DNA of 64,000 nucleotides from Bacteroidota bacterium. Lineage in GTDB: Bacteria > Bacteroidota > Bacteroidia > Cytophagales > Cyclobacteriaceae. The stretch covers positions 1 to 64,000 of the forward strand of contig JAFDYU010000002.1 of NCBI GenBank assembly GCA_018267285.1, written 5' to 3'. The notes under the pieces are model-generated. The model made no database searches. It was given only the letters and a program-made list of their open reading frames with translations, and was not told the origin of the DNA. Each line of letters starts with the position of its first letter. The stretch's first letter is position 1. A program made the position numbers and the translations under genes. This document shows positions 32,234 to 35,694 of this stretch, in pieces.

Positions 32234-34231
32234 ATGGGAAATTCGCTCGATCAGGCACGACACATCCGACTAACCGCTGCGGGGGTTTTAGTTTCATTCG
32301 GTATTATTTATGGCGACATCGGCACCTCACCGCTGTACGTATTTAAAGCGATTATCGGCAACCGGGCGATAAGCGAAGAACTGGTGCTTGGTGGGATGAG
32401 CTGCGTTTTTTGGACACTCACCCTCATCACTACTTTTAAATACGTGTATCTCGCACTTAATTCAGACAACAAAGGTGAAGGTGGAATTTTTGCGCTCTAT
32501 GCGCTGGTACGCAGGTACAAAGCCGCGTGGGTAATTTTTCCGGCCATCATTGGTTGTGCTACCATGATCGCTGATGGATTCATCACTCCGGCCATCAGTA
32601 TTTCTGCAGCCGTTGAGGGGCTAAAAATAAATTATCCAAGCCTGCCTACGGTTCCTATTGTCATCACCATTTTAGTGCTGCTGTTTTTCTTTCAACAATT
32701 TGGAACCAACATAGTAGGTAAAACTTTTGGGCCTATTATGATGATTTGGTTTGTGATGATTGGTGGCTTGGGTTTCACGTACCTTCTGTCGGATCTTTCG
32801 GTACTGCGAGCCGTCAACCCTATATACGCCTGGAACCTGCTCACCAATTATCCGGAAGGTTTCTGGCTGCTTGGGGAAGTCTTCTTGTGCACTACCGGAG
32901 CCGAAGCATTGTATTCTGATTTAGGACATTGTGGCAAAGGAAATGTTCGTATGGGTTGGGGAGTTGTAAAAATTGCATTGCTCCTAAATTATTTTGGGCA
33001 GGCCGCTTGGCTGCTCTCTCAAAAAGGAAATATCCTTAATGGTCAGATTCCGTTTTATTCAATAGTTCCACAGCCATTCTTAAACTTAAGCGTAGTGATT
33101 GCCACCATGGCGGCAGTAATAGCCAGCCAGGCATTGATCTCGGGCACCTTCACGTTGGTAAACGAAGCCATGAAATTGAAACTATGGCCCAGTACAAAAG
33201 TCCGTTATCCCAGCCAACTGAAAGGTCAGATTTATATCCCTGCTATCAATTGGGTTTTAATGGCAGGCACTATTGGTGTTATCTGGATTTTTAAAGAGTC
33301 TAGTGCCATGGAAGGTGCGTACGGACTGGCCATCACCTTGAATATGCTGATGACCACCACACTTTTGGTCTTTTATTTCAGTACAGCAATGCATTCGCGT
33401 ATACGCACCATTGCTATTGGTCTTATCTTCTTCACCTTAGAATCGTTGTTCCTCATTTCAAATTTCCATAAGTTCGAACAAGGCGGGTGGTTCACCTATA
33501 GCATTGCTGTGATTTTGTTTGTAATGATGTTTGTGCTGCTGAAAGCAAGGCACTTGCGCGAACGGCATACCGAGTTTGTAGATTTAAAACATTACATCCC
33601 GTTAATCAAAGACCTGCAGGCCGACAACTCCATTCCTAAAGAAGCTACCAATCTGGTTTACATGTCGGTGGCCAACAGCAAGCGCTATATTGACTCAAAT
33701 ATTGTCTATTCCATATTTAAGAAAAGGCCAAAGCGTGCCGATGTTTATTGGTTTGTGCATGTCGATACGGTGGACAGCCCCTACACTTCCAAATACTCGG
33801 TAGATACCATCATTCCAAAAAAATGTTTCTTCGTTCGAATCAAGTTAGGATTTAAGGCCGACCACCGGGTGAATTTGCTCTTCAACAAAATACTTCACGA
33901 TCTGGCCGAAACTTCAGAAATTGATTTGATCAGCCATTACGATTCGTTGAACAAGCACAGCATGCCTGCGGATTTCAAATTTGTGATCCTTCATTCCCTC
34001 GCTTCAGTCGACAGTGAAATTTCCACGTTCGATAACCTGGTGATTCAGGGGTACCGTTACATTAAAAAACATTCGTTGTCTACCGAAGAAATGTACGGTC
34101 TGGAATTGGCCAATGTAGAAGTAGAAAATGTTCCCATCATGGTGGGGCCTCCCGCCAAAGTGCGCATCAAACGCGAACGCGAAGAAAGCGAACGCGAAAA
34201 AGAAATGCGCTATCACGGCCACATGAATTAA
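32234..34231 (+). CDS. kup: KUP family potassium transporter
   Basis: The 665-residue protein has about twelve predicted membrane helices up to residue ~440 and a cytoplasmic C-terminal domain beyond. The N-terminal signature FGIIYGDIGTSPLYVFKAI and the following DNKGEGGIFALYALV are KUP/HAK hallmarks, as is GFITPAISISAAVEGL. It takes up K+ with protons. The tail is unusually charged (KIKREREESEREKEMRYHGH type), beyond the usual fold. Its stop touches the 3' end of the convergent broken ion channel gene. Confidence 0.95.
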   Translation: MGNSLDQARHIRLTAAGVLVSFGIIYGDIGTSPLYVFKAIIGNRAISEELVLGGMSCVFWTLTLITTFKYVYLALNSDNKGEGGIFALYALVRRYKAAWVIFPAIIGCATMIADGFITPAISISAAVEGLKINYPSLPTVPIVITILVLLFFFQQFGTNIVGKTFGPIMMIWFVMIGGLGFTYLLSDLSVLRAVNPIYAWNLLTNYPEGFWLLGEVFLCTTGAEALYSDLGHCGKGNVRMGWGVVKIALLLNYFGQAAWLLSQKGNILNGQIPFYSIVPQPFLNLSVVIATMAAVIASQALISGTFTLVNEAMKLKLWPSTKVRYPSQLKGQIYIPAINWVLMAGTIGVIWIFKESSAMEGAYGLAITLNMLMTTTLLVFYFSTAMHSRIRTIAIGLIFFTLESLFLISNFHKFEQGGWFTYSIAVILFVMMFVLLKARHLRERHTEFVDLKHYIPLIKDLQADNSIPKEATNLVYMSVANSKRYIDSNIVYSIFKKRPKRADVYWFVHVDTVDSPYTSKYSVDTIIPKKCFFVRIKLGFKADHRVNLLFNKILHDLAETSEIDLISHYDSLNKHSMPADFKFVILHSLASVDSEISTFDNLVIQGYRYIKKHSLSTEEMYGLELANVEVENVPIMVGPPAKVRIKREREESEREKEMRYHGHMN

Positions 34232-34570
34232 TCATGTGCTGAGTATGTAATAAATATTGGCAATTACATAACCTACGATCACCGAAATTGCTCCTACTTT
34301 GTTTATGCGGTGCGCTCTCTCAATCCGGTTGTTGTTGTGAAGTTTCAAGGCCACAGCCGAAACCATGAGTATGCAAAAAATACCGAAGAACGTTAAGCTG
34401 TGAAGTATATCGACTAAACTAAACTGCGATGACTCGGGCAGAACCGAATCAATAATATATTTATTACCCACAGCTGCAAAAAGGCCGCCCACGGGTAAGC
34501 CGAAGCGAGACTCCACTTCGTTCGTCTCAGACATGAAACTTACCACAGCGATGAGGAACGCAAAGTACAT
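34232..34570 (-). pseudogene. Transmembrane half of a pentameric ligand-gated ion channel (3' of an in-frame TAG)
   Basis: This 112-residue open stretch, read from an internal ATG, has four membrane helices in the pLGIC order. M1 is MYFAFLIAVVSFM plus the preceding FLKIFLG; M2 is around GLPVGGLFAAVGNKYIID; M3 is LVDILHSLTFFGIFCILMVS; M4 is INKVGAISVIVGYVIANIYY. It continues in the same frame from the ligand-binding half after one TAG at 34592-34594 and seven sense codons. Joined length would be about 316 residues, close to bacterial channels such as GLIC. It is either a pseudogene, a readthrough gene or an assembly error. It overlaps nothing; the kup gene ends at its stop. Confidence 0.8.
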
Positions 34571-34591
34571 TCCGAGAAAAATTTTTAAAAA

Positions 34592-35182
34592 CTACCCGCC
34601 CGCCTTGCGCTCGATGTCAAGCGAAATAATAATAGATGAATACGTTTGACCTTTCACTTCCGGGCGTGGATCGCCAAAAGGTGTGTCGTACGGACTTTGA
34701 GCTGCCGTAACTTTAAAGCTATCCATAATCCACCCGGTTAGCCCTTCGTTGGGGTTCAACCTGCTGTCTTCGTTATCGGCTACAAAAACTAAACTTGTTA
34801 CATCCAAGTTTGAGTCTTCGATGTTGATTTTGAGGTGTTGTTTGTCGAATGGAAAATCCCGTACCTGCCAGTCTTCTTTCATGGTGCATTTCATTTTCAG
34901 TTGCACCCATATTTTTCCATTGATGGTGTCTGAAAGCACCTGATCAATCTCAATATCTTTTGCATTCGGGATATCAAGCTCTTTTGAAAAATCTAATTCC
35001 TTATTGTAATCGTAAGTAAACCAAAGCCAGAATCGGGCAACATATTCTTTATCGTGAAAATTGATATCGTGTATGCTGATAATATAAGCCCCCACTTTTA
35101 CGGTGTCGGGTTTTTCTTTAGCCGAAGCAGCAGCGGTTAACACAAATAAAACAGGAAACAGAAGCCGGGTGATGGTTTTCAT
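34592..35182 (-). pseudogene. Ligand-binding half of a pentameric ligand-gated ion channel, ending at in-frame TAG
   Basis: The product is 196 residues with a signal peptide (about 1-21). It continues as a Cys-loop-receptor-type extracellular beta domain: ARFWLWFTYDYN (49-60), the FPFDKQHLKI loop signature (110-119) and IIISLDIERK before M1. Prokaryotic members lack the disulfide of the Cys loop, as here. The frame stops at TAG where an aromatic residue such as Trp (TGG) is usual before M1, suggesting one G-to-A change. The frame is open upstream to 35506, but that part lies over rnpB and has no signal, so 35182 is the start. Alone it would give a soluble periplasmic domain. Confidence 0.8.
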
Positions 35183-35227
35183 AGAGTTAACGGTTTGGGG
35201 TGTATCCAAAAATAAGAATATTTCTTT

Positions 35228-35263: not shown

Positions 35264-35652
35264 AAAGCAAACCGGCTTATCGTGTCGTGGAAACGCGCCA
35301 AGGAAAGTCCGGGCAACACAGGGCACCGTACTTCCTAACGGGAAGGTGGCGCGAAACGCGCCAACAGATAGCGCCACAGAAAATAAACTACCCACAACGA
35401 CTTGTCGCGATGGGAAAAGGTGAAAAGGCGGAGTAAGAGCCCACCGCCCCGGTGGCGACATCGGGGGCATGGCAAGCCTTACGGGTTGAAAGGCCAAATA
35501 GGCCACACTTCTTAACCGATACTGCTGCCCGCGGTATGCGCAAGCAGGTGTGGTTGGGTAGGCTGCTCGATCCCCGCTGTAAAGCGGGGGCTAGATAAAT
35601 GATAAGCGCTTCAAAAAACTGAAGTACAGAACCCGGCTTATAGGTTTGCTTT
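35264..35652 (+). ncRNA. rnpB: RNase P RNA, bacterial type A
   Basis: The universal 5' core GGAAAGTCCGGGCA, the GAGCCCACCG-type segment and the 3' ACAGAACCCGGCTTAT core are all present in order. The P1 helix closes the molecule: AAAGCAAACC (35264-35273) pairs with GGTTTGCTTT (35643-35652). The ~389-base length is normal. It is the catalytic RNA that trims tRNA 5' leaders. It diverges from the broken channel gene and precedes the DoxX-like gene. Confidence 0.97.
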
Positions 35653-35694
35653 TATTTTTTTTATTTGTCGTTTGCCTACTAACCAAAAATAAAC

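Follow-up and report, generated by a model that had tools for sequence, protein, structure and literature searches.

A probably very recent nonsense allele of a Cytophagales-type pentameric ligand-gated ion channel gene

Results

A single TAG interrupts one reading frame at the start of M1

The minus strand between positions 35182 and 34232 of the window, the whole 64,000-nucleotide stretch of DNA analysed here, carries a single 317-codon reading frame that is interrupted by a TAG at codon 197 and closes with a TGA (Table 1). Reading the frame directly confirmed what the initial annotation had described, namely two same-frame halves (196 and 119 codons) parted by one TAG, with no frameshift between them. 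Homopolymer runs surround the TAG, and the reading frame is intact through them. Chance is excluded as the source of this arrangement because many genomes have uncut relatives whose identity over both halves is 51-85%. Alignment with a solved GLIC/GlyR chimera chain placed the stop opposite the second tyrosine at the start of GlyR M1, which supports its earlier placement just before M1 and locates the cut at the exact boundary between the two domains. At the other end of the frame, the stop codons of the channel gene and of the convergent potassium transporter gene abut with zero spacer (window 34229-34234).

Table 1. Features of the channel locus and its neighbours in the window.
Feature	Position	Strand	Remarks
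Extracellular/ligand-binding half	34595..35182	-	196 codons from ATG; Pro loop FPFDKQ; pre-M1 Arg
In-frame TAG	34592..34594	-	residue 197, M1 start
Membrane half	34235..34591	-	119 codons; M1-M4 assigned by alignment
First ATG of membrane half	34568-34570	-	within M1
Normal TGA terminating the channel frame	34232..34234	-	abuts stop of convergent K+ transporter gene
Promoter-like box TATTTTTG (TAnnTTTG)	35207..35214	-	32 bases upstream of ATG
RNase P RNA (rnpB)	35264..35656	+	conserved neighbour
K+ transporter (PF02705)	32234..34231	+	conserved convergent neighbour

Homology to pentameric ligand-gated ion channels extends over both domains

The ligand-binding half matched Pfam PF02931 with 28.2 bits (E 1.5e-6), narrowly above the gathering score of 26, and the whole frame, with an X at the stop, reached 25.7 bits, narrowly below it. 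The uncut paralog of the same genome gave zero Pfam matches at 0.001; these scores place the family at the edge of that Pfam model. The whole frame (X at the stop) aligned over residues 69-313 with solved GLIC-type chains, the best match being a GLIC/GlyR chimera at 7.9e-12 and the match to wild-type GLIC standing at about 4e-9. A profile built from 52 family rows again had the same chimera chain as its best match among the solved chains, at 1.6e-10; a stricter limit of 1e-10 left no match. The membrane half on its own gave sub-cut-off matches only, to Pfam DUF998 (5.3e-5) and NCBIfam LGIC_1 (2.4e-4). The homology of both domains to solved channels upholds the initial family call of a pentameric ligand-gated ion channel, a fold assignment made from sequence only.

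Family marks of Pro-loop receptors, including the [F/Y]PxD motif, are set out in a published inventory (PMC4795631). The window copy has FPFD at this position, and all 51 relatives keep both P and D, preceded by F in 49 and by Y in 2. The pre-M1 arginine, R192 in the window copy, is kept in all 51 relatives, and its pairing with the Pro-loop aspartate is putative. M2 has Arg at 0′ and Phe at 9′, both identical in 51 of 51 aligned relatives, as well as Asp or Glu at −2′ (numbering from the GLIC/GlyR chimera alignment). Glu at −2′ marks cation selectivity, and the M2 residues suggest that the channel is probably cation-conducting. The family M2 (residues 226-245 of the window copy) is Gly-rich, with Lys and Asn. 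Compared to GLIC and other prokaryotic Pro-loop receptors, the family shares the Pro loop, the pre-M1 arginine, M2 Arg 0′, the acidic residue at −2′ and the homology over residues 69-313, but it lacks the M1 proline kink, with glycine (Gly204) at the aligned position in all 52 rows. The window copy differs further in its stop at M1, which interrupts a chain that is continuous in the uncut relatives.

Relatives are conserved beside rnpB and almost always uncut

The window lies in genome G000, which is 97.7% complete and comprises 3.33 Mb in 25 contigs. A second channel gene in this genome (C24:211814-212722) is uncut and 53% identical to the window copy. Channel matches were found in 55 of the 62 genomes of the genus, G000 included, amounting to 79 matches with contig-end fragments counted, and in-frame stops occur in two of the 79: the TAG of the window and a TAA in G001. 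Ten orthologs, mostly adjoining rnpB, are 62-85% identical to the window copy and uncut except for one with a TAA elsewhere; the closest uncut orthologs are 85, 82 and 79% identical. The G001 ortholog (L006, G001:C19:70330-71262) carries its own TAA two codons upstream of the Pro loop and shows no visible decay, and a more distant member (L033, G034:C15:57600-58522) lies in two different frames, with the break near M3-M4.

A protein tree of 23 genes set clade B (11 genes, the window's included) apart from second copies with support 100; inside clade B, the genes of G000, G064, G069a and G030 split from the other seven, also with support 100. rnpB adjoins the clade-B channel in eight of the nine relative loci searched, and the ninth, L088, where rnpB is lacking, is just 2,744 bases long. 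A potassium transporter gene lies on the other side of the channel in six loci (L099, L087, L037, L038, L039 and L040); in L099 it adjoins the second copy. Two clade-B channels flank rnpB in G069 (L099/L086), and rnpB separates the one most like the window's from the potassium transporter gene. Both G064 and G030 have an ORF (785 and 781 codons, respectively) between the channel and the potassium transporter, that of G030 being ABC-permease-like.

Scanning named genomes yielded 53 loci, nearly all named as Cytophagales, Cyclobacteriaceae, Flammeovirgaceae or unplaced Bacteroidetes. The alignment used throughout (A1) comprises 51 of these 53 loci plus the window copy; the two omitted are L147, which is the G034 gene divided between frames, and L150, a fragment. 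A plasmid search for relatives in 'near' mode returned zero matches, and viral contigs scanned with the ligand-binding half gave 13 pattern matches and zero relatives. A literature search returned nothing on this gene, a result that does not by itself prove absence in print.

The stop is private to the window copy and lies in a leucine column

At the column of the TAG, the 51 aligned relatives have leucine in 50 cases and methionine in one, and none of them has a stop, so that the TAG is not shared with relatives. A TGG-to-TAG change had been proposed as its origin; the column, which contains no tryptophan, does not support this.

The methionine encoded by the downstream ATG is an invariant family residue within M1 (51 of 51 relatives), and for this reason the ATG is not a new start. 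The same residue bears on the proposal that two proteins act jointly, one of them a secreted ligand-binding protein and the other a stand-alone pore whose translation restarts at the M1 ATG. Such a division would suit a cut that falls exactly between the domains and a first half that is the whole extracellular domain, with an N-terminus resembling a signal peptide (judged by eye). However, not only is the methionine invariant, but the ATG aligns just past the M1 proline position of GlyR, so that a restart there would omit about the first 10 residues of M1, and all 51 aligned relatives are unsplit here. We consider the two-protein arrangement highly improbable. As in acetylcholine-binding proteins, the product of the window copy would be a soluble ligand-binding domain without a pore; it would differ from them in arising through a private stop in one genome, and any use of it is putative.

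Both halves were under strong purifying selection

Codon models were fitted to the 11 clade-B genes over 313 columns, with stops treated as missing. Overall dN/dS was 0.041. The terminal branch of the window copy had a dN/dS of 0.014 compared to 0.043 for the rest, a difference that was not significant (2lnL 3.5), and a value of 1.0 on this branch was rejected (2lnL 41.4). The branch of the sister G064 was also low (0.017), and that of G001 (0.045) was the same as the rest. When the substitution rates of the halves were compared, as had been suggested with the initial annotation, both proved to be under strong purifying selection on the window branch (0.004 for the extracellular and 0.004 for the membrane half, versus 0.045 and 0.023, respectively, on the other branches), although synonymous sites are near saturation and the exact figures are therefore soft.

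Allowing a final neutral share of the window branch cost 1.6 lnL at 1%, 3.0 at 2% and 6.6 at 5%; under this simple model, which has no among-site rate variation, a loss of function, if any, is at most about 1-2% of the branch old. The bound for G001 is weaker (2.6 lnL at 10% neutral). Across the 52 rows, 84 columns show no more than a single departure, and in just one of those columns is it the window copy that departs. A TAnnTTTG box, which we take to be the Bacteroidetes -7 element, occurs within 200 bases before the match in all 11 clade-B genes, against 0.08 expected per 200 bases. No relaxed selection after the stop is visible on the window branch, as expected if the stop is very recent. 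The codon models show strong purifying selection on the gene up to a time not long before the present. The low dN/dS and the lack of decay are equally expected from readthrough, from a functional two-part gene or from a base error.

TAG behaves as an ordinary stop

In 304 kb of the contig, out of a genome of 3.33 Mb, TAG terminates 22 of the 139 ORFs with 300 codons or more and 30 of the 180 with 200 codons or more, the first half of the channel counted. The median number of codons to the next stop was 10 for TAG, 12 for TAA and 11 for TGA. Genome-wide reassignment of UAG was rejected on these 304 kb, where TAG behaves as an ordinary stop. Same-frame ORF pairs with one intervening stop and coding-like sequence on both sides numbered 11, the channel pair included; eight of the other ten have different Pfam families on each side and two have a family on a single side, a pattern that makes them probable neighbouring genes and yields no second clear single-stop split gene. 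The CUA anticodon was found in none of 32 tRNA matches (150 of 199 candidates scored; 29 anticodons read by ARAGORN and three by eye from alignments, one of these with masked bases), a set that is incomplete, since Phe and Ile are missing from it. An RNA element at the stop was likewise rejected, none having been found, and the fold there is not unusually stable (z -0.24).

These results weigh on readthrough of the TAG, whether programmed or leaky, which would give some full-length channel and leave the remainder as soluble extracellular domain. Purifying selection on both halves is consistent with it, and a published survey (PMC7918605) makes the case that bacteria commonly have in-frame stops whose dN/dS is below 1. 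However, the survey drew on stops common to more than one species, which it found to be short-lived, and here the stop is present in none of 51 relatives. The lack of a CUA anticodon in the incomplete tRNA set, the unremarkable RNA fold and the ordinary use of TAG elsewhere on the contig also argue against readthrough, which we regard as unlikely. Readthrough and the two-protein option, both raised at the outset, keep a small probability, the stop column and the invariant methionine lending neither of them positive support.

Release factor 1 (RF1, prfA) was not found in the G000 assembly, compared to 33 of 39 genomes above the cut-off in one search (G000 among the 39), and its loss looked real at first. 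Gene order around prfA was too variable in G001, G002 and G022, and G030, G064 and G069 were used instead; in these, RF1 is clustered with uvrA, a peptidase-like gene, a LolC/E-like gene and others. A query of 14.9 kb of G064 DNA that included the LolC/E-like gene gave only an RF2 cross-match in G000, and uvrA and the peptidase-like gene, searched as proteins, gave no true match. The apparent loss was thus traced to a missing block, which would also have carried uvrA and the peptidase-like gene. The prfA/uvrA block is seemingly absent from an assembly rated 97.7% complete. A missing contig is most likely the better explanation for the absence of RF1 and uvrA, the alternative being that several standard genes were lost. 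That RF1 is truly lost and UAG read as sense is almost certainly wrong: the absence from the assembly speaks for it, but the whole block seems to be missing as from a missing contig, and the ORFs terminated by TAG (30 of 180) would gain only short extensions.

The main rival explanation is a base-call, assembly or strain-mixture error, with living cells having a sense codon and a normal channel, because it is distinguishable by reads alone. An error would agree with the absence of decay in the window copy, with a genome in 25 contigs from which at least one block is missing, and with the homopolymer runs that surround the stop. On the other hand, the frame is preserved across those runs, four syntenic neighbours align with G030 over most or all of their length, and the 11 same-frame one-stop pairs on 304 kb include no second clear split gene. 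On balance, such an error appears rather unlikely.

Discussion

The locus in this strain is probably a very recent nonsense allele, and probably an inactivating one, in a genome that has a related uncut channel. Belonging to clade B, the locus is a second copy of a pentameric ligand-gated ion channel of Cytophagales type, and in it a single very recent nonsense change would halt translation at the M1 start. The product would be at most an exported extracellular domain and no channel, and loss of the channel would be tolerated, perhaps because the uncut channel (53% identical) encoded elsewhere provides a putative redundancy. Among the readings first offered for this DNA, the very recent pseudogene emerges as the first choice, the stop being absent in relatives and decay not being visible.

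According to the same survey (PMC7918605), in-frame stops are widespread in bacteria, mostly last about as long as polymorphisms do within populations, and in many cases are not pseudogenes. This fits a private, young stop; inactivation itself is putative. The allele shares with recent bacterial pseudogenes and polymorphic nonsense alleles a private single nonsense change, no visible decay and an uncut related copy, and it differs from them in that the cut falls exactly at a domain boundary, probably by chance.

The two nonsense alleles and one frameshift in the family, with no decay on the G000 and G001 branches, might hint that stops are tolerated. A further possibility, which we consider very unlikely, is that the TAG is a tolerated leaky switch, giving mostly a secreted ligand-binding domain that would buffer or sense ligand and rarely a full channel by readthrough. 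Were this true, the independent stops (TAG here, TAA in G001) would be a recurrent way of turning the channel down, which in the window copy would favour the soluble receptor.

Under the preferred reading of a very recent nonsense allele, the locus offers a well-bounded case of a channel gene stopped at a domain boundary without visible decay, and it cautions that domain-boundary stops are not to be taken as functional splits without relatives and reads. We met no characterised member of the Cytophagales channel branch. Together, these results point to a branch of pentameric ligand-gated channels in the Cytophagales that is conserved beside rnpB and often beside a potassium transporter.
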